From NCBI GenBank assembly GCA_017522915.1, contig JAFWXX010000007.1:1-52375 (forward strand): DNA of 52,375 nt, written 5' to 3'. The notes under the pieces were generated by a model. It saw nothing but the letters and a program-made list of their open reading frames with translations, ran no database searches and had not been told where the DNA came from. This DNA comes from Bacteroidaceae bacterium. Lineage in GTDB: Bacteria; Bacteroidota; Bacteroidia; Bacteroidales; Bacteroidaceae. Position numbers and translations under genes: made by a program. This document shows positions 22,410 to 29,280 of this stretch, one piece after another. Position 1 is the first letter of the stretch. The number at the start of each line of letters is the position of its first letter.

Positions 22410-22425
22410 TTTACTGAGCGTAAAT
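22410..22425 (+). repeat. Left boundary repeat (attL-like)
   Basis: TTTACTGAGCGTAAAT is identical to 28960-28975. TTTAC and GTAAA form inverted arms around TGAGC, as in core sites of tyrosine recombinases. Confidence 0.7.
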
Positions 22426-22503
22426 TATGTCCCAATCTACCAATCTTAAATATATGCTGCCAATGTATTATATCAACATTTAAGCGTATTGCTAAATTAT
22501 TAC

Positions 22504-22534
22504 CACATACAATTTGCATACAAAATCGGATATT
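22504..22534 (+). repeat. Subterminal repeat, left copy (possible integrase arm site)
   Basis: Thirty-one bases match 28818-28848 at 27 positions in the same orientation, including the uninterrupted core ATTTGCATACAAAA. It lies 78 bp inside the left boundary repeat. Matching subterminal sites at both ends are expected of arm-type integrase binding sites. Confidence 0.6.
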
Positions 22535-22637
22535 TAAGAAAAATGGTAATGCAAAAATACCACAACAAAATTTTCTGTCGTAGTAGGCGATTGTTTCTAT
22601 TTTCTTTCACTTCCGACATCACTAAGGTATAAAAATA

Positions 22638-22684
22638 ATGCTGACGAAAAGAGAAGTAGCAATGATTTCTTTTTTCGCCAGCAT
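22638..22684. repeat. Inverted repeat in the island left end
   Basis: ATGCTGACGAAAA at 22638-22650 pairs with TTTTCGCCAGCAT at 22672-22684, with one A-C mismatch. The 21-nt loop is long for a terminator and no gene ends here, so the role is unknown. Confidence 0.5.
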
Positions 22685-22868
22685 ATTTTATGCTGTCAAT
22701 GCACAAATAAGTTTAGTCCGTTTTGGGTATATAGCCAATGGGATAAACTAAACTGATCAAAGTATATCTTAATAAGGTCAGATTTACACACATATTACAT
22801 AACTACATTATAAAATAATAATTATTATGTAATAAAATAATGAGGATAAAAGATTTTATTCTCTATAC

Positions 22869-22901
22869 TTTGCCAGATTTGATAAATAGTTCATACCTTT
22901 G
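22869..22901 (+). promoter_or_regulatory. Promoter of the ATPase-nuclease pair
   Basis: TTTG at 22869-22872 is followed after 21 bp by TACCTTTG (22894-22901), an exact TAnnTTTG -7 box. The start codon is 29 nt downstream. Confidence 0.5.
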
Positions 22902-22930
22902 CACATAAATGATAATTAATATTTTTTTCT

Positions 22931-24262
22931 ATGCAAAAGATTGTTATAAGAAATTTTAGACAGATTTCTCAAGCTGAGTTAGAAGTTAAGGATTTTCTTT
23001 TTCTGATAGGAGAACAAGCTAGCGGAAAGAGCACAATAGCAAAATTGATATATTTCTTTAAGTCTCTAAAGCAAGACTATTTTAATTTATTATATGATTC
23101 ACATAAGCAACCATTATGTGAATTACAAAAAAAACTAATAACTATTATTCAAAATAAATTTGCGATGTATTTTGGATATACCTCAAGATTGAATGATGAT
23201 TTTTATATACAATATGTATTCTCTACCGAAAAAGGATATAATTTGACTTTGTCTAAAAAGAAATCATTGCAGATTCAGTTTGACGCTGAATATTGGGATT
23301 TTATTAGCAAAAAGACTATACCCCTTCAAAAGCTTTTAAATAGAGAAGATAATAGTAGAAACAACTTTATTTTGCAGGAAAAAGCTAAGAATGCATTAGT
23401 TAGCAAAATGACTACAGAGGTGAATAAGATGTTTTTTGATGAAAGAGAGACTCTATTTTTCCCTGCTGGAAGAAATATCACTGTTTCTTACCCAGAACAA
23501 TTTCAGTTACTCTTTTTTGGAGAACTTAAATCTGCATTATATAATAATACGGAAACTAATACTATTGATATAAATCTAATAAAGGAATTTATTAGTTATT
23601 CTAAATTCTTGGCAGATTATTTTAATGGAATAGAAGAAAATATTGAGAATACACCATTTAGGAAACTTGTTTCAAGCATTATATCGCAAATCCTACATGG
23701 TGATTATAAAAATGAGAATGGCAAAGAGAGGATCTTTTACACGAAAAAAGAGTTTGTTCCATTAAACATTTCCTCTTCAGGACAGCAGGAAGTAATACGC
23801 ATTATACAAGATGCTATATATATATTGAACGAAAAACAAAAAGCCTCTCGAATAATTGAGGAGCCAGAAACACATTTATTTCCTAAAGCTCAGAAGTTAT
23901 TAATAGAACTGTTGATTTTAGTTGCGAATAAGACTAACAGCCAATTAATTATTACGACACATAGTCCATATGTCCAATCGACTTTTAATAATATGTTATA
24001 TTATACGAAAGTCGTAAGAGCCCAGCCTGACAAAATTAATGTGATTGAAGATTTCTTTTCTACAGAAAAATTAAAAATATCGGCAAAGGAATATATGAAT
24101 ATAGACCCTGATAAATTTCAAGCATATGCTTTAAAAGTAGGTTCTGAAGTATATTGCAAATCGATTCTTGATAGAGAAACTCAACTGATAGGAGATAATT
24201 CTATTGATGAAGAGACTGAAAATATCAATAATGAATTTGATTTTCTATATTCAATGATTTAA
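22931..24262 (+). CDS. ABC/OLD-like ATPase (AAA_15/AAA_21 type), candidate defence protein
   Basis: The 443-residue protein has a Walker A motif GEQASGKST at residues 27-35. A SSGQQE segment in the position of an ABC signature follows, then a Walker B IIEEPETHLFP and an H-loop IITTHSPY. This is the SMC/Rad50-like ATPase fold found in OLD nucleases and in many phage-defence pairs. No TOPRIM domain follows, so nuclease activity would come from the partner gene, which starts 2 nt after the stop. Codon use is very AT-rich compared with the host genes. I do not recognise it as a member of a named system; PARIS AriA and RloA have the same general fold but different partners. Confidence 0.8.
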   Translation: MQKIVIRNFRQISQAELEVKDFLFLIGEQASGKSTIAKLIYFFKSLKQDYFNLLYDSHKQPLCELQKKLITIIQNKFAMYFGYTSRLNDDFYIQYVFSTEKGYNLTLSKKKSLQIQFDAEYWDFISKKTIPLQKLLNREDNSRNNFILQEKAKNALVSKMTTEVNKMFFDERETLFFPAGRNITVSYPEQFQLLFFGELKSALYNNTETNTIDINLIKEFISYSKFLADYFNGIEENIENTPFRKLVSSIISQILHGDYKNENGKERIFYTKKEFVPLNISSSGQQEVIRIIQDAIYILNEKQKASRIIEEPETHLFPKAQKLLIELLILVANKTNSQLIITTHSPYVQSTFNNMLYYTKVVRAQPDKINVIEDFFSTEKLKISAKEYMNIDPDKFQAYALKVGSEVYCKSILDRETQLIGDNSIDEETENINNEFDFLYSMI

Positions 24263-24264
24263 AT

Positions 24265-24861
24265 ATGAGGAATAATTTTTGCTCAAAAATTCAAGCACTT
24301 TTTACCGCAACCACGTATAGTATAGATCGGTTAAGCGAATCTATTATATATGCTTATGATTGTAAACAATCACAATGTACTTTTTTTACAACATCTGCAG
24401 ATTTTCATGACAAAGCATTTAAGATAATAAATAACAATAATAATGAAATAGTTCATATATGTGTGGATGGAGGTTTAATAGAGTATGGACTAGAAGATTA
24501 TGTTGGAGATGGTATTGTGCGTGGACGTTGTGATTGTATTATTTTTGATGACAACAAGCTACTTCTTGTTGAATTTAAAATGGATGTAGATTCATTGACC
24601 AAAGATAAGACTTTATGGAAAAGTTTTAGTCATGCAATGAATCAAATAAAAGATTTCTATCTTTTTCTAAAAGAAAACTTTTTGCAATCAGGAGATGATT
24701 TGCAGACTTTTTATACAAGTTCTAATATTATTCCAGTAATTTGCATGAAAAATACTCCTAATATACATCCAAAAAGAAATGCACAAAGGAATAACGAAAA
24801 AGAAAAGTTTAGACTATCTACTAATTTAAAAATACAATCATTCTGCGAATATAATTTTTAA
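24265..24861 (+). CDS. Small PD-(D/E)xK-like nuclease partner of the ATPase
   Basis: This 198-residue protein of no named family has a recognisable PD-(D/E)xK-type core: D90 in GRCDCIIFDD, then a hydrophobic strand LLLVEFK with E103 and K105. That spacing and the strand pattern are typical of restriction-endonuclease-like folds. Its start lies 2 nt after the ATPase stop, so translation is probably coupled and the proteins likely form a complex. The pair, in a mobile island with strongly AT-rich codons, suggests an ATPase-gated nuclease acting in phage defence or as a toxin. Function is inferred from motif and context only. Confidence 0.6.
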   Translation: MRNNFCSKIQALFTATTYSIDRLSESIIYAYDCKQSQCTFFTTSADFHDKAFKIINNNNNEIVHICVDGGLIEYGLEDYVGDGIVRGRCDCIIFDDNKLLLVEFKMDVDSLTKDKTLWKSFSHAMNQIKDFYLFLKENFLQSGDDLQTFYTSSNIIPVICMKNTPNIHPKRNAQRNNEKEKFRLSTNLKIQSFCEYNF

Positions 24862-24877
24862 TATAAGACATAAAGAA

Positions 24878-24903
24878 ATGGGAGCAGAAAAATCTACTCC
24901 CAT
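24878..24903. terminator. Hairpin between the nuclease gene and hxsA
   Basis: ATGGGAGCAGA (24878-24888) pairs with TCTACTCCCAT (24893-24903) with one mismatch around an AAAA loop. It lies between the convergent nuclease and hxsA genes and may terminate either. Confidence 0.5.
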
Positions 24904-24922
24904 CCTAATTTTACCAAGTTCT

Positions 24923-25189
24923 TTATTTACTCGAATAGTGTGAACTATGAGAGCTGTGCGAACTGTGGCTGCTGTGTGAACTATGCGAGCTATGGCTACT
25001 GTGTGAACTATGACTGGCGAGTAACTTAAACTCGGCAGACGATTGTTCAAGTACCAATGTTTGTTCCTGTTGTTGCTCGATTTGAGTGTCGCTGTTTGTA
25101 ACCTTAGCAACAATCTTTTCGCCAACAGAGGAACAATAGCTTGCACCTGTAAGAAGTGCAGAGACAGCAAAGAACAAAAGCTTCTTCAT
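24923..25189 (-). CDS. hxsA: His-Xaa-Ser repeat peptide, HxsA-like precursor
   Basis: The 88-residue peptide has a hydrophobic export-type N-terminus (MKKLLFFAVSALLTGASYC), a Gln/Glu-rich middle and a tail in which His recurs every third residue from 60 to 84. This gives nine His-Xaa-Ser units, eight HSS and one HYS, ending in YSSK. The start at 25189 is fixed by a perfect Shine-Dalgarno sequence (AAAGGAGG) five bases upstream; an upstream in-frame start at 25231 would overlap hxsC. It is the last gene after hxsD, hxsB and hxsC, the hallmark of the HXS system, in which a repeat peptide is presumably modified by two radical SAM enzymes. Nearly every repeat uses a different codon combination, so the repeat is maintained as protein. 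The final product is unknown. Confidence 0.85.
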   Translation of the reverse strand: MKKLLFFAVSALLTGASYCSSVGEKIVAKVTNSDTQIEQQQEQTLVLEQSSAEFKLLASHSSHSSHSSHSSHSSHSSHSSHSSHYSSK

Positions 25190-25193
25190 TGAG

Positions 25194-25203
25194 ACCTCCT
25201 TTT
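25194..25203 (-). promoter_or_regulatory. Strong Shine-Dalgarno sequence of hxsA
   Basis: On the minus strand AAAAGGAGGT precedes the ATG with five bases between AGGAGG and the start codon. Bacteroidetes genes rarely have such sites, and the other genes in this operon lack one. It decides the hxsA start and suggests high translation of the precursor. Confidence 0.7.
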
Positions 25204-25224
25204 TAAGATTAAACAATAAGTGAA

Positions 25225-26364
25225 CTAACACGATATATCATTGGATATATGTTCTACTTTTTTGATATGCTTACTATGATGCTCTTTATTTGAAGCAAAG
25301 AAACCTGCACATTGACCTTTTAGCAAACAACCGTCACATTCTGAAAGATATATATCTTTCCAATCTGAGATTGATTGTTGGGCATAGCTTCGTATATCTT
25401 CGGGTAATACACATAATTGTGCATTATAAATATATGGTTTCATACCTCTGTCAGCCAAAAGAAGAACAGCTTCACGCAGTTCATTATTATAATCGTAGGG
25501 GTCAATCCATAACTCATCGAAGTTTTCTTTTGCCAACCCTGTTGTTTCCATCTGCATAAATGCTACTTGCGAGACGAAAGGGAAATTATGATATATAAAA
25601 TCCGCAAACTGAGGCAAGCGTTTATAAGTTTGCTTATGGACTACAATCCTTAAACCGATTCTTTGACGGAATAACGCTAAATTATATAATCCCTGTATAG
25701 TCTTGTAAAATGTTTTTGCTCCAACAATTCGATTATGTTCATCCGCTATATCCGAAAATAATGGGATATCTATCTGTAAATCGTGATGATGGCATTTTGC
25801 CAATTTCATAGCAAACTCCTTATCTGCAAATCTTACTCCATTTGACAAGATACTAATTGCAGTTTTAGGAAGTTCTTTCTGTATGTGCTTAATCAACACA
25901 AAAAGATTATCTCCTATGAGAGTTGGCTCACCTCCAGTTATACCAATTTCCTCAGTCCCTTTGTCAAATAATGAAATAAGTTTAAGATTGAATGGAGTTT
26001 TATCTTTTTCTTGAACAATTGGAGGTTGTGGGCACATAATACAACGATGATTACAGCGTTCTGTCGCCATTATCGCATTATGATTTGAGGAAATCTCATA
26101 CACAAATATAACTTCTCCTTGATTATTGACAACAACGACATCCCCTTCGTGGAAACTATCTGTATTGTCAACAATACAATATGGTTTACTATTGTCAACA
26201 ACTGACTTATTGGATGTTATTGTCGCAGAATAACCAAATGCAGGCTTATCTACATTATTACTTACAAGAATTTCATTTGAACGAGAGAATATATTCTTCC
26301 CAAATGTGATTCTTCCTATTATATCGTCATTGATATTATATGATGTTCCTTGAATCTGTTTCAT
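25225..26364 (-). CDS. hxsC: His-Xaa-Ser system radical SAM maturase HxsC
   Basis: The protein has 379 residues. About 100 residues of N-terminal beta-rich sequence precede the radical SAM motif C104-x3-C108-x2-C111 in TERCNHRCIMCPQPP. GITGGEPTL follows, and a short C-terminal cysteine group (CDGCLLKGQC) may hold an auxiliary cluster. The NHRCIMCPQPP signature and position between HxsB and the repeat peptide match the HxsC family. It probably modifies His or Ser in the HxsA repeat in the cytoplasm before export; the chemistry is not established. The start is 6 nt after the hxsB stop, so the two enzymes are translated together. Confidence 0.88.
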   Translation of the reverse strand: MKQIQGTSYNINDDIIGRITFGKNIFSRSNEILVSNNVDKPAFGYSATITSNKSVVDNSKPYCIVDNTDSFHEGDVVVVNNQGEVIFVYEISSNHNAIMATERCNHRCIMCPQPPIVQEKDKTPFNLKLISLFDKGTEEIGITGGEPTLIGDNLFVLIKHIQKELPKTAISILSNGVRFADKEFAMKLAKCHHHDLQIDIPLFSDIADEHNRIVGAKTFYKTIQGLYNLALFRQRIGLRIVVHKQTYKRLPQFADFIYHNFPFVSQVAFMQMETTGLAKENFDELWIDPYDYNNELREAVLLLADRGMKPYIYNAQLCVLPEDIRSYAQQSISDWKDIYLSECDGCLLKGQCAGFFASNKEHHSKHIKKVEHISNDISC

Positions 26365-26370
26365 TTCAAA

Positions 26371-27795
26371 TCAAATTATCCAAGACCAAAATATTCTATT
26401 TATCTCAGGGTCGTGCCTCTTTAATAACTCAAACAGATAGCGTATAATCGCCTTTGTTTTCTTGCACATTTCATTGGTTGGACGGAATCCTATCATATCT
26501 CCCTGCTCTGACATATTACGGACGGGGTCAGCACCACAATATGGTTGGAATATACATTCCGAGCACATAGGTAAACATTCCGTACAAGCGGATGAAATAA
26601 TATTATGAAGTAATTCACCATTGAACATTTCTTGGTAAGTATTCTCATTCACATTTCCAAGTCTGAAATAGAAATTCTTGAAACGAGCCATCATTCGGGC
26701 TTCATCAGAGACATACACATTCCCGTCATAATCATAAATTACTCCTGCGATTCCAACGCCAGCAGGTGATTGTAAGTCAACAAAACCTGTTGCAAATGGG
26801 GTCAACATTCGTTTAAGCAATAATGCGGCAAAACCCTCAATGAAAAATGTACCCTGCTTATTTAACTCAATTATATAATTAAGTCCTTCTTTATAGTTCT
26901 CAATAAATGCTTCTACGGGATAAGCAATTTTTTCTTTATACTGCTTTGCAAATCCGTATGGATTAAGAGAACGTAAGAAGATATTGTTAAATCCTAATCG
27001 AACATACTCATCAATAATTTCTTTGAAACGCCCTAAACTATGTTTTGATGTAGTCATCAAGGCGGAAACACACTCTTTATCCCCCCAAATGTCGCGTATC
27101 ATAGTTAGGTTCTTTTCAAATATAGCGTGATGGTCTAAGTCTTTATTCTGTAAAGGACGATTTGTGTCGTGCAAATCCTTTGGACCATCTAAGGATGTTG
27201 AAATCATACATTTATGCTTTTTGAGGTATTTTACCATATCCTCGTTAAGCAATGTCAGATTAGTACATATAACAAATTCAAGTACACGTTTCTTGAATAG
27301 ATTCTGCCATTCAGTCTCTTCAATAATATACTTAACCATTTCAAAATCAGTAGATGGGTCTCCACCTTGAAACTCTATCTTTATAAATGGCGAGTGCGAT
27401 TGAAATATAGTTTTAACTACATTTTTAGCTGTTTTCTTTGTCATATTTGCAGAATGGTCGTCCATATTCTTACGTGCAACTTGGCAATAAATACAACTTG
27501 AATTACAGCGTAAAGTAGGCACAACCATATGCAAAGATGTAAAATCCCTCAATATGCTTTTCTTGGTACGGAATTTAGTAGCAAGCATCGGGATTACATC
27601 CGTAACGTTATCAGTAGTTGCAATTTGTTTTGAGGCTATATCATAAAACAAATCACAATGTTCATCCATATCACCTTTTACAAGATGATAAAAGTCTTCA
27701 TTCTGTAAGAATATATATTCTCCCACTTCGTTAGTTAGGAGATATTCATTATCATTAAATCGTTCAAAGCGGAACGGCAATAGTTGATAAGCCAT
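26371..27795 (-). CDS. hxsB: His-Xaa-Ser system radical SAM/SPASM maturase HxsB
   Basis: The protein has 474 residues. The N-terminal 85 residues (LPFRFERFNDNEYLLTNEVG) could serve in peptide recognition, as is typical of SPASM maturases. The radical SAM site is C97-x3-C101-x2-C104 in TLRCNSSCIYCQ, followed by EFQGGDPS. The SPASM region near the C-terminus reads CTECLPMCSECIFQPYCGADP, giving cysteines for auxiliary iron-sulfur clusters. Family recognition rests on this layout plus the neighbours hxsD (3 nt upstream) and hxsC. It is related in general form to sulfatase maturases and peptide-modifying enzymes, but it lies next to a His-Xaa-Ser peptide rather than a sulfatase. Confidence 0.88.
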   Translation of the reverse strand: MAYQLLPFRFERFNDNEYLLTNEVGEYIFLQNEDFYHLVKGDMDEHCDLFYDIASKQIATTDNVTDVIPMLATKFRTKKSILRDFTSLHMVVPTLRCNSSCIYCQVARKNMDDHSANMTKKTAKNVVKTIFQSHSPFIKIEFQGGDPSTDFEMVKYIIEETEWQNLFKKRVLEFVICTNLTLLNEDMVKYLKKHKCMISTSLDGPKDLHDTNRPLQNKDLDHHAIFEKNLTMIRDIWGDKECVSALMTTSKHSLGRFKEIIDEYVRLGFNNIFLRSLNPYGFAKQYKEKIAYPVEAFIENYKEGLNYIIELNKQGTFFIEGFAALLLKRMLTPFATGFVDLQSPAGVGIAGVIYDYDGNVYVSDEARMMARFKNFYFRLGNVNENTYQEMFNGELLHNIISSACTECLPMCSECIFQPYCGADPVRNMSEQGDMIGFRPTNEMCKKTKAIIRYLFELLKRHDPEINRIFWSWII

Positions 27796-27798
27796 AAT

Positions 27799-28140
27799 TC
27801 ATCGTTTTACATTGACAGGTTTGAATGCTTCTTCAACTATCAAATCTCGAATATGTCCAAATTGATTATTCGTATAATGTCTAAGTTGCTGGTCTATCAA
27901 CTCATTGCAGAAGTGTTTTGGAACATCTGCATTTACTTGATTATCCTCTTTGGACTCAAAAACAATTTGAACTAAGTTGGAATTGCTACTATCAGTTACC
28001 TGATGTATGAAATAGAGATGGGTAAATTTGTATAAGGCTGCTGTAATAACCTCTTTTGCATACAAATTCAAATCTACCGAAACTTGAAATTTATTGTCTT
28101 CAAGTTCTACGACTGGGAATTTAATGTCTGCCATAACCAT
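27799..28140 (-). CDS. hxsD: His-Xaa-Ser system protein HxsD
   Basis: This small soluble protein has 113 residues from the ATG at 28140; a second ATG at 28134 is also possible. A GGAAG sequence seven bases upstream of 28140 weakly supports that start. The C-terminal segment QLRHYTNNQFGHIRDLIVEEAF corresponds to the LLNDYxLRE-type region that defines HxsD. The role is unknown; small partner proteins in such operons often bind the precursor or help the maturases. It is the first gene of the hxs operon and is preceded by a strongly structured 250-nt leader. Confidence 0.8.
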   Translation of the reverse strand: MVMADIKFPVVELEDNKFQVSVDLNLYAKEVITAALYKFTHLYFIHQVTDSSNSNLVQIVFESKEDNQVNADVPKHFCNELIDQQLRHYTNNQFGHIRDLIVEEAFKPVNVKR

Positions 28141-28176
28141 ACCAAGTCTTCCAGCCCCCAAAGACCAATCTTATTC

Positions 28177-28333
28177 AACGAAGAAGCGTGGAACTGCAAT
28201 GCCACGTTCGTTCTTGGAGGTCGTAGGAAAACCCGTATAAGTCGAGGGATGGTAATAGCAGCCCACGCTATATGCGTGAGAAACCATTACGCTTTTCTTG
28301 ACTTATACTTTGTGAATTTCCTACGTTCCCAAG
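28177..28333 (-). ncRNA. Structured leader upstream of hxsD (candidate cis-regulatory RNA)
   Basis: Two hairpins lie head to tail. Hairpin A joins AACGAA plus CGTGG (28177-28191, four-base bulge) to CCACGTTCGTT (28202-28212). Hairpin B is an extended stem. CGTAGGAAA (28222-28230) pairs with TTTCCTACG (28317-28325), GTATAAGTCGAG (28235-28246) pairs with CTTGACTTATAC (28297-28308, one G-U), and a 5-bp helix and a small apical hairpin CACGC/GCGTG cap it. An outer CTTGG/CCAAG pair adds 5 bp. No protein reading frame explains this. If the -7 box at 28400 is right, both hairpins fall in the 5' leader of the hxs operon. No known riboswitch class is recognised; a mobile-element structure is the main alternative. 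Confidence 0.5.
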
Positions 28334-28399
28334 TATCAAGATAGCATAACGCTTCTTTTTAACTCATATGTCTTGGATAGAGTTATCCCTATCCAACTG

Positions 28400-28407
28400 C
28401 AAAATTA
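28400..28407 (-). promoter_or_regulatory. Putative -7 box of the hxs operon
   Basis: On the minus strand TAATTTTG matches TAnnTTTG. It sits just downstream (in transcription order) of a 12-bp inverted repeat and would give a leader of about 250 nt before hxsD. Confidence 0.4.
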
Positions 28408-28413
28408 CAAAAA

Positions 28414-28454
28414 AGTCGTAATAATAGGCTCATATTAGGTAAATTATTACGACT
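28414..28454. repeat. Perfect 12-bp inverted repeat upstream of hxs (operator-like)
   Basis: AGTCGTAATAAT (28414-28425) and ATTATTACGACT (28443-28454) are perfect complements separated by 17 bp. The repeat begins 6 bp upstream of the putative hxs -7 box. This is where a dimeric regulator or an upstream terminator for the integrase remnant could lie. Confidence 0.5.
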
Positions 28455-28465
28455 TGATGAGTATT

Positions 28466-28769
28466 TTAGAGTTTCAGCCCTCGATTTTGTCTTCTACTTG
28501 TCGGCAATCCTAACGCTTCCATAAACTCATCTTTCTTGCGTCTGAACCAAGAGTGATGCGATACTTGAACGAATCTCCGACAATCGGCGGCTCTTGCTCT
28601 CAGCAAGGTTCGCCCAATCCTCCTTGGAGAGTTCCTGCCCCGTAGAGTAGTATTTCTGCTTGCGGTTGTAGATGACCTGTATCTTCACAGGAAATAGACC
28701 GCACTTCTTGGCTCGACGGGCATCCAGCACCGAGGGTACCGATATGCCGTCCTTTGAATACTTGAACAT
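28466..28769 (-). pseudogene. Truncated tyrosine recombinase (N-terminal arm-binding domain only)
   Basis: From the ATG at 28769, 80 codons read as an Arm-DNA-binding domain of Bacteroidetes phage-type integrases (SVLDARRAKKCGLFPVKIQV, RKQKYYSTGQELSKEDW). The frame stops at 28527. A second frame continues from about 28560 to a stop at 28466 (WFRRKKDEFMEALGLPTSRR), suggesting a frameshift or a deletion junction. The core-binding and catalytic domains with the Arg-His-Arg-Tyr residues are absent. An exact TAnnTTTG box (minus strand, 28835-28842) precedes it and overlaps the right subterminal repeat. It is a remnant of the island's integrase. Confidence 0.7.
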
Positions 28770-28802
28770 AATCTGCCGTTTTTTTAGGTTAATTACTTCT
28801 GT

Positions 28803-28835
28803 GTATGCAAATCCTTGCACATACTATTTGCATAC
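28803..28835. repeat. 10-bp inverted repeat in the integrase promoter
   Basis: GTATGCAAAT (28803-28812) pairs with ATTTGCATAC (28826-28835). The right half is part of the subterminal repeat, so integrase binding and autoregulation may be coupled here. Confidence 0.5.
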
Positions 28836-28848
28836 AAAAGTAGATATT
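28818..28848 (+). repeat. Subterminal repeat, right copy
   Basis: It matches 22504-22534 at 27 of 31 positions in the same orientation and lies 111 bp inside the right boundary repeat. Confidence 0.6.
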
Positions 28849-28959
28849 ATCGGCAAATTCCGTAAATCGCAAGAAAAGAAAATTTGCCAAAATACGCTAA
28901 AACACAATGTTTTGCATATTATTGGCAAATCTTATAAAATAGGTGAAAATACCCTATAA

Positions 28960-28975
28960 TTTACTGAGCGTAAAT
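28960..28975 (+). repeat. Right boundary repeat (attR-like)
   Basis: TTTACTGAGCGTAAAT is identical to 22410-22425. Host sequence with the more GC-rich character of the flanks resumes just beyond it. Confidence 0.7.
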
Positions 28976-29124: not shown

Positions 29125-29280
29125 ATGAAGAAAAGCTATCATGCTCCGGAAGCGGAGAGTATTATCATCGAGAGCAACATCATTGCTGCATCAACAGGAA
29201 GCGAAACGCGCAGCTCGGTCCCTGACACAGGTACCAGAAGCAACAACAGCGGAGGCTGGGGCAATATATGGAGCAACTGA
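29125..29280 (+). CDS. Small 51-residue peptide of the Bacteroidales YxxP type
   Basis: The peptide begins MKKSYHAPEAESIIIES and ends in a Gly/Ser/Asn/Trp-rich tail (SGGWGNIWSN). Short peptides with a lysine-rich start, an aromatic-xx-Pro motif and a hydrophobic stretch are frequent in Prevotella and Bacteroides genomes and lack assigned function. A perfect 19-bp hairpin terminator starts five bases after the stop, supporting real transcription. It lies 150 bp outside the right island boundary, in GC-richer sequence, so it is probably a host gene. No clear start signal is visible upstream. Confidence 0.55.
   Translation: MKKSYHAPEAESIIIESNIIAASTGSETRSSVPDTGTRSNNSGGWGNIWSN

Follow-up and report, generated by a model that had tools for sequence, protein, structure and literature searches.

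What would two radical S-adenosylmethionine (SAM) enzymes do to a short, probably exported peptide that ends in nine consecutive His-Xaa-Ser (HXS) units, and in what genetic setting does such a gene set occur? This question is raised by a locus within a 52,375-nucleotide stretch of DNA (hereafter the window; contig JAFWXX010000007.1 of assembly GCA_017522915.1) of a Bacteroidaceae bacterium, the host of the cluster being a gut-type bacterium. The locus, hxsD-hxsB-hxsC-hxsA, occupies positions 28134-24923 of the minus strand with gaps of 3, 6 and 35 nt, placed exactly as in an earlier description made from the letters of the DNA (the sequence-only reading), and consists of the following genes:

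27799-28134, minus strand: hxsD, 111 aa (TIGR03976); weakly Rpb11/RpoL-like predicted fold (model and Foldseek).
26371-27795, minus strand: hxsB, 474 aa (TIGR03978); radical SAM enzyme with an N-terminus like a RiPP recognition element (RRE; RiPP, ribosomally synthesized and post-translationally modified peptide) and the ligands of auxiliary cluster II (Aux II) only.
25225-26364, minus strand: hxsC, 379 aa (TIGR03977); radical SAM enzyme with one four-Cys auxiliary site.
24923-25189, minus strand: hxsA, 88-aa precursor with a hydrophobic N-terminal segment and a C-terminal HXS tract.

Identity and proposed function of the cluster

It is near certain that the cluster belongs to the HXS system, as had been proposed from the sequence, because three of the four proteins exceed the curated cut-offs of their models (HxsB, 640 bits against 370 for TIGR03978; HxsC, 390 against 268 for TIGR03977; HxsD, 84 against 50 for TIGR03976) and because of the His-Xaa-Ser repeat itself. 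The search with hidden Markov models of the HXS families that had been suggested therefore succeeded for these three and failed for HxsA, which scores 29.7 bits (cut-off 121.65), 33.9 (48), 13.9 (65) and 33.3 (55) with the HxsA, HxsA2, HxsA3 and HxsA4 models of NCBIfam and, being under every curated cut-off, is filed in none of them. The precursors of three other Bacteroidales loci scanned (L014, L021, L033; loci are cited by such labels) likewise lie under all four models, and a GenBank-annotated HxsA (L008) lies under the HxsA, A2 and A3 cut-offs. The gene next to hxsC does encode a precursor with tandem units, nine with a period of 3, and a signal-like hydrophobic segment at its N-terminus. 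The cluster represents a known kind of system, probably of the RiPP type in which a ribosomally made peptide is modified by enzymes; it shares with the HXS system (TIGR03976-TIGR03979) its gene products, the D-B-C order and the His-Xaa-Ser repeat precursor, and differs in the 88-aa HxsA that falls under all four models and in the position of hxsA 3' of hxsC.

The system is said to have been named from genome surveys by Haft and Basu in 2011. The sequence-only reading knew of no established product, and none, nor any function, was found in the open-access literature searched; subscription journals lay outside this coverage, so a published product is possible. HXS genes receive no more than brief mention there: in the portions available, HxsB appears as an annotated cluster in PMC9062424, where a His-Xaa-Ser motif is also described in a Mucilaginibacter peptide whose enzymes are unrelated, and HXS genes of Pseudomonas aeruginosa are listed in PMC8446631; HXS terms are absent from the available portion of a survey of Bacteroidales RiPP clusters (PMC10352776), as are HxsB terms from that of a paper on RREs (PMC12710340).

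The explanation that we favour overall, to which we give an even chance, is that of a RiPP-type HXS system that makes rings from His and Ser, with a product destined for the cell envelope and a copy in the window that sits in the remnant of a mobilisable element. HxsA would be made with its hydrophobic, signal-like N-terminus, and HxsB would dock on the leader motif [LF][VIY]L[KE] via its RRE-like N-terminal domain. Every His-Xaa-Ser unit would then be acted on by HxsB and HxsC, both of which have a single radical SAM cluster and a single auxiliary site, the most likely reaction being abstraction by HxsB of a hydrogen at the Ser beta carbon and formation of a bond to the His imidazole two residues earlier, which would yield a chain of small His-Ser rings. 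HxsC may complete the ring reaction or add a second change, HxsD may serve as a small accessory protein, perhaps dimeric, and the product would be exported and stay in the envelope rather than act as a released antibiotic. The steps differ in strength: that radical chemistry is directed at Ser or His is, judging from the sequences, highly probable, while ring formation as such is a possibility that falls short of an even chance. The gene set, the conserved residues, the leader motif, the predicted folds and the element remnant are observations, while docking, reaction, location and role are deduced. No result of the analysis speaks against the chemistry suggested in the sequence-only reading, a modification of His or Ser that leads to metal binding or cross-linking. 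The comparison predicts a docking motif, required cysteines, possible tailoring partners and the destination of the product. Should every unit acquire a ring, the tract would hold promise as a rigid peptide material.

A defence role for HXS itself was considered and rejected, as the radical SAM cores drew no more than weak matches to viperin from PADLOC (22-32 bits), and an Rfam scan 5' of hxsD returned no structured RNA.

The HxsA precursor

Two features of HxsA are central to the proposed docking and modification:

24932-25012, minus strand: HXS tract, HxsA residues 60-86, eight HSS units and one HYS, then SK.
25043-25057, minus strand: leader motif LVLEQ, HxsA residues 45-49.

The 88-residue peptide with nine units at its C-terminal end is as first described; the units begin at residues 60, 63 and so on to 84, and 20,000 composition shuffles of HxsA gave runs of at most four, against the nine observed. 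The open frame of hxsA extends to 25231, but it is the ATG at 25189 that follows AAAAAGGAGG. Since AGY and TCN codons are mixed among its Ser codons, the tract is no recent multiplication of a single codon triplet; such a mixture at the invariant Ser occurs in 31 of 94 HxsA genes.

The window was compared with 90 other loci, row counts being unweighted for relatedness. From 84 of these 91 loci, window included, 91 distinct HxsA-like proteins were gathered by a finder that demands at least four HXS units within 30 residues and lets shorter tracts escape. They hold 633 units, separated by exactly 3 residues in 525 of 542 intervals, in which X is Ser (286), Tyr (122), Arg (71), Ala (51), Gly (29) or one of twelve other residues. 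Tyr occupies the X position of the last unit in 64 of the 91 proteins, and the residue after that unit is Ser or Gly in 85; the tract ends at most 5 residues from the C-terminus in 74 and is followed by at least 20 further residues in 16. An HXS-rich gene by the four-unit test is missing from seven loci (L020, L034, L036, L039, L044, L053 and L071), some at contig ends. A frame of L030 (9420-9857) ends in DHWSHASHYSSRL, a short HWS-HAS-HYS end below the threshold of the finder, and X can therefore also be Trp.

Ahead of the tract, 88 of the 91 proteins have a hydrophobic stretch, which in the window is consistent with the export claimed for this peptide; the test used looks for a hydrophobic segment and differs from a signal-peptide predictor. 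Expectation-maximisation on 68 leaders, reduced from 90, yielded the motif [LF][VIY]L[KE][HRKQ][AS] at a median of 11 residues upstream of the tract, with a log-likelihood ratio of 266-268, whereas 20 shuffles run with equal settings averaged 81 and reached 92 at most. HxsA as a lipoprotein was rejected, as the Cys of GASYC is Ala in relatives (by eye) and a lipobox-like pattern occurs in only 2 of 91 proteins.

Ten long HxsA forms were scanned, of which six carry PG_binding_1, one PKD and one a Big_9/cadherin-like domain, and two had no match. These forms bear on whether the product might be released as an antibacterial RiPP (bacteriocin). Radical SAM RiPP enzymes often make antibiotics, and HxsB relatives are present on plasmids, but a PG-binding, PKD or cadherin-like domain after the tract fits such a product poorly, and no exporter, leader peptidase or immunity family appears among the commonest neighbour families or was recognised in the recurrent groups, which are only partly identified. 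A bacteriocin is thus very improbable as compared with the envelope product favoured here.

Extra proteins stand between the hxs genes in four Bacteroidales operons: one with about 18 HXS units in L033 (7237-7986), the L030 protein with the short end described above and, in L024 (2338-3171) and L021 (1862-2695), proteins with Sel1-type repeats by eye.

Auxiliary clusters and N-terminal domain of HxsB

Beyond the radical SAM core, the following parts of HxsB stand out:

26464-26565, minus strand: Aux II ligands C411, C414, C420 and C444 of HxsB, conserved in 86-88 of 89 rows; C411, C414 and C420 placed by a HMMER alignment to anSMEcpe.
27544-27795, minus strand: RRE-like region, HxsB residues 1-84, three strands and three helices (AlphaFold2, mean predicted local distance difference test (pLDDT) 93.6).

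The CxxxCxxC sites seen in the sequence, C97/101/104 in HxsB and C104/108/111 in HxsC, are borne out by conservation. Among 89 HxsB rows, C97/101/104 are present in all, C411/414/420 in 88 and C444 in 86, and no other Cys column exceeds 62. In the HMMER alignment C411/414/420 fall on the CX2CX5C of anSMEcpe, where the equivalent cysteines and the last Cys bind Aux II according to the ligand numbers in the available part of PMC5715301. The positions equivalent to the ligands of auxiliary cluster I (Aux I) hold other residues in nearly all rows, namely Ala, Ser or Thr at 345, Ser, Ala or Thr at 363 and Pro at 424 (Pro in 84 of 89), and residues 341-369 contain no Cys in 82 of 89 rows, one of which is the truncated L047. 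The exceptions are L011, with Cys at 345, 363 and 423 and hence a near full Aux I set, and L012 and L044, with one such Cys each; L053, L058, L064 and L069 have Cys elsewhere within 341-369. The loss of Aux I may thus be derived within HxsB, although L011 is a long branch. The L011 gene (3637-5037) lies in an operon of the order D ... C-B-A, together with a precursor of HxsA3 type (113 bits, cut-off 65).

HxsB thus lacks the seven-Cys set of a full SPASM domain, with both Aux I and Aux II, and the Pfam SPASM model gives 19.6 bits for the HxsB of the window against a cut-off of 21.5. Nor does it have a Twitch domain, which is described in the available part of PMC5715301 as holding a single auxiliary cluster without the CX2CX5CX3C motif, as HxsB retains CX2CX5C and the last Cys. 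On its cysteine pattern HxsB reads as the reverse of a Twitch enzyme, with the putative Aux II cysteines kept and those of Aux I lost. For anSME, Aux I has been put forward as the cluster that accepts the electron, and the distance between Aux II and the radical SAM cluster is 26.7 Å (PMC5715301, in part); because the Aux I ligands are missing in HxsB and Aux II is distant in anSME, the electron is probably not passed by the Aux I route of that enzyme.

The first 84 residues of HxsB have a winged-helix-like predicted fold, which aligns as part of the match of HxsB to CteB; the structural alignment of the two proteins starts at HxsB residue 6 (VIA alignment) and covers the RRE-like region. A Pfam scan up to E 1 gave no PqqD match for HxsB. 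The structure alignments drew on a subset of 69 HxsD and 59 HxsB sequences.

Candidate reactions and related enzymes

An attack on the Ser beta carbon followed by a bond to His is favoured because the His-X-Ser register fits cyclophanes that join residue i to i+2 and because HxsB resembles a Ser/Cys oxidase: its nearest neighbour in predicted structure is anSME, and the aligned Asp is kept in 88 of 89 rows. Three-residue cyclophanes with C2(His)-C-beta(Ala), C2(His)-C-beta(Arg) and C4(Phe)-C-beta(Ser) bonds are known, according to the part of PMC11002830 available. The same likeness to anSME would also suit the main rival to a ring, in which HxsB and HxsC oxidise Ser to products of formylglycine or aminomalonate type, or alter His and Ser without linking them, so that the tract becomes a rigid or reactive tail. 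This rival alone leaves open why an invariant His stands two residues ahead of Ser and why the period is strictly 3, and with Aux I lost HxsB has no counterpart of the cluster proposed to accept the electron in anSME (PMC5715301, in part); such oxidation is considered rather unlikely. HxsB further differs from anSME in its RRE-like N-terminus, its lack of Aux I cysteines and its presumed substrate, the repeat tract.

The cross-linked His-Ser product favoured here recalls the triceptides (XncB, OscB, MscB, HaaB and YhhB), which share a three-residue motif linked from i to i+2 and include His- and Ser-containing members (PMC11002830, in part). The HXS system differs from them in a second radical SAM enzyme and HxsD, in a long unbroken tract and in an HxsB without Aux I cysteines, which reaches only 43.8 bits against the GrrM/OscB model and about 52 bits against those of AmcB and YhhB. 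A triceptide is defined by a C-C bond from an aromatic ring at i to the C-beta at i+2; HXS may belong to this class, whose motif format it fits. TigE and TvgB are also radical SAM RiPP enzymes that modify repeats, and TvgB makes cyclopropyl groups from Val (PMC11002830, in part); unlike theirs, the HXS tract needs no Val or Ile. The SCIFF maturase CteB performs Cys thioether chemistry, whereas the HxsA tract of the window has no Cys.

In HxsC, C104/108/111 and C318 are present in all 84 rows and C343, C346 and C352 in 83, a pattern by which the enzyme is predicted to carry one auxiliary site (C318, C343, C346, C352). The HxsD model has a mean pLDDT of 90.1, and Foldseek gives a weak likeness to the Rpb11/RpoL fold. 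HxsD as an RRE was set aside since model and Foldseek favour that fold; PqqD-like chains were off the lists, which does not exclude them.

Neighbouring genes and possible tailoring

Neighbours were scanned as 119 Bacteroidales proteins within 3 kb and, elsewhere, as 142 of 186 proteins of at least 100 aa; the family tables hold the 25 commonest of 109 (Bacteroidales) and of 148 (elsewhere) Pfam families. The largest related group among the Bacteroidales neighbours consists of mobilisation genes (7 proteins, 7 loci), and the commonest Pfam families are Mob_Pre (5), AAA_14 (4), Glycos_transf_2 (4) and integrase domains (3); elsewhere Phage_integrase (4) is the commonest.

A methyltransferase of about 180-200 aa lies directly 3' of hxsC in L042, L054 and L072, and one upstream of hxsA has an identical sequence in L061 and L062, so that it adjoins the cluster in five loci in all; in two more cases it forms the C-terminal domain of HxsC (L027 3160-4818, 79 bits; L038 2887-4590, 127 bits, with a profile of HXS-linked methyltransferases). 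A protein like polyprenyl-phosphate sugar synthases of glycosyltransferase family 2 (GT2) and a membrane protein adjoin HXS in L018 (10937-13170), L026 (10927-13161) and L053 (269-3072), and in L048 (11166-12824) a polytopic membrane protein stands there without GT2. The membrane proteins of these four loci, which belong to distant lineages, have 7-11 predicted helices and a common GLEYED motif, and match nothing in Pfam or NCBIfam. Their occurrence suggests that the methyltransferase and the GT2/membrane pair may be lineage-specific tailoring functions; neither stands beside the cluster in the window.

Methylation also enters into a different explanation, by which mature HxsA is a metal-binding envelope peptide whose His ligands are tuned by methylation or C-substitution for metal capture or sensing. 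Nine His in 27 residues, together with the methyltransferases beside or fused to the system, of which that of L072 weakly resembles the model of the OvoA C-terminal N-methyltransferase (29 bits, cut-off 170), agree with it. The invariant Ser is left unexplained, and no metal transporter, oxidase or metalloregulator is found among the 25 commonest families of the 119 and 142 neighbours, rarer families being outside this view; we regard metal binding as unlikely. Returning to ring formation, a bolder version of it is offered as a speculative proposal only: HxsA would become an envelope rod of up to nine adjoining His-Ser(beta carbon) rings, made by an HxsB that is a reversed SPASM enzyme without the active-site-proximal cluster and with an electron route unlike that of anSME, and decorated by the methyltransferases and the lipid-linked-sugar transferase pair.

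Distribution of the system

The HXS system is widespread. In a set of 61 genomes, HxsD occurs in that of the window and in none of the 60 relatives searched, and in a sample of 395 genomes of the phylum it is again confined to that of the window. When an HxsB alignment was run against 84,980 species genomes, it gave at least 590 stretches, at least 544 of them with tblastn E up to 1e-3 and not each a confirmed HxsB. The best 80 were kept, so that lineage counts drawn from them are not frequencies, and these contain HxsB in 80, HxsD in 78, HxsC in 74 and an HXS-rich gene in 73. Among plasmids, HxsB has matches in 491 of 72,556 records, of which 399 cover 80% or more of the protein, and 321 of the 491 are from Klebsiella; among phages, 17 of 50,697 records match, two of them over at least 80%.

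In the HxsB tree the window falls in a group of 27 rows (support 100/99) that comprises 21 Bacteroidota, one Succinivibrionaceae, one row labelled Roseburia, the window and three viral-contig rows. The placement of the long branches L010, L011 and L012 is unsure, and two contigs of metagenome-assembled genomes (MAGs), L016 (Roseburia) and L053 (Lokiarchaeota), are possibly misbinned. The gene hxsA is 3' of hxsC in the window and most rows of its clade, and 5' of hxsD in 21 of 25 Pseudomonadota rows.

The mobile-element remnant around the window copy

The cluster lies in an insert at 22410-28975, which extends beyond the coordinates first given for it, between a TDH-like gene and nadA, with these features:

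22410-22425, plus strand: left copy of the 16-bp direct repeat TTTACTGAGCGTAAAT, probable attachment site.
28960-28975, plus strand: right copy of the 16-bp repeat, exact, probable attachment site.
22504-22534, plus strand: left 31-nt subterminal direct repeat, 87% identical to the right copy.
28818-28848, plus strand: right 31-nt subterminal direct repeat.
22931-24262, plus strand: AAA_15 ATPase, co-cargo, AriA/PDC-M29A-like (Pfam PF13175, 103 bits; PADLOC).
24265-24861, plus strand: small protein, co-cargo, with weak matches to SduA_C (22.4 bits, Pfam cut-off 27) and PDC-M29B (28.4 bits).
28469-28564, minus strand: 3' remnant of a mobilisation gene, equivalent to residues 405-435 of its relative in L005 (78% identity by tblastn, E 3.7e-13).
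28527-28820, minus strand: frame with a 5' integrase remnant (Arm-DNA-bind_5, PF17293, E 6e-7, residues 17-78 read from 28775).

The distance from the TDH-like gene to nadA, measured by match ends, is 52-471 bp in 19 of 29 other nadA loci of the genus and 7,021 bp in the window; in the remaining 10 the TDH-like gene lies outside the 1.5-kb flank. Only 0.02 matches to the 16-bp repeat with up to 2 mismatches are expected in the window. An intact integrase and mobilisation gene are not present between the attachment sites: the mobilisation remnant is the last 31 residues of the protein, and the integrase remnant comes from a different integrase, as that of L005 has no match to this frame. The cluster therefore was rightly linked to a small integrated element, and that element is, by its sequence features, evidently a decayed remnant of an integrative mobilisable element rather than an intact one.

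The relatives L004 and L005 carry, before hxsD, an integrase, a small second gene, a DUF5906-like gene, a primase-like gene and a mobilisation gene; the integrase and mobilisation genes are full-length in L004, and the L005 integrase starts at the locus edge. L006 has the same gene set with the integrase in pieces, and L047 a split integrase, a small gene and a mobilisation gene. The terms excisionase-like, VirE-like and primase are our own labels, Pfam having shown only DUF5906 (one member, L006) and Toprim_2 (two members). A circular form of L004 was considered and rejected, as no terminal repeat was found.

Broken integrase and mobilisation genes raise the suspicion that the element is dead and that it carries the window copy as inactive cargo. 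The absence of HxsD from the 60 relatives and a ratio of non-synonymous to synonymous rates (dN/dS) of 0.33 for HxsB against L014 would add to this suspicion. However, all four hxs frames are open, L014, from a MAG of dairy-cattle colon, has 98.6% DNA identity over 24872-28564 (3,694 nt), the L005 comparison gives 77% identity for DNA and 90% for HxsB protein, and the L014 comparison gives HxsC a dN/dS of 0.10 and HxsA one of 0.25, all these ratios being based on few changes. Inactivity is accordingly judged very unlikely, and a working HXS system within a decayed element remains the preferred reading.

Elsewhere in the genome of the window, three copies of the 16-bp repeat with one mismatch lie between open frames (contigs C45, C48 and C51; L126-L128), and on this account a dispersed intergenic repeat may have been the entry site of the insert. 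What comes after the C48 copy resembles, by eye, the left end of the window insert and perhaps marks another element. In L106, of the same genus, a single copy with one mismatch lies beside nadA, though the other neighbour there is not the TDH-like gene.

The co-cargo pair at 22931-24861 on the plus strand, an ATPase and a small nuclease-like protein, matches both halves of the PADLOC candidate defence system PDC-M29 (58.5 and 28.4 bits), and the ATPase fits AriA better (126 bits, PADLOC). Just outside the right end of the insert, beside the 3' end of nadA, lies a 51-aa frame (29125-29280, plus strand) beginning MKKSYHAPEAESIIIES. A second radical SAM stretch occurs in the window at 2127-2765 on the minus strand, with 68 bits against the HxsB model (cut-off 370) and one stop in the aligned part.

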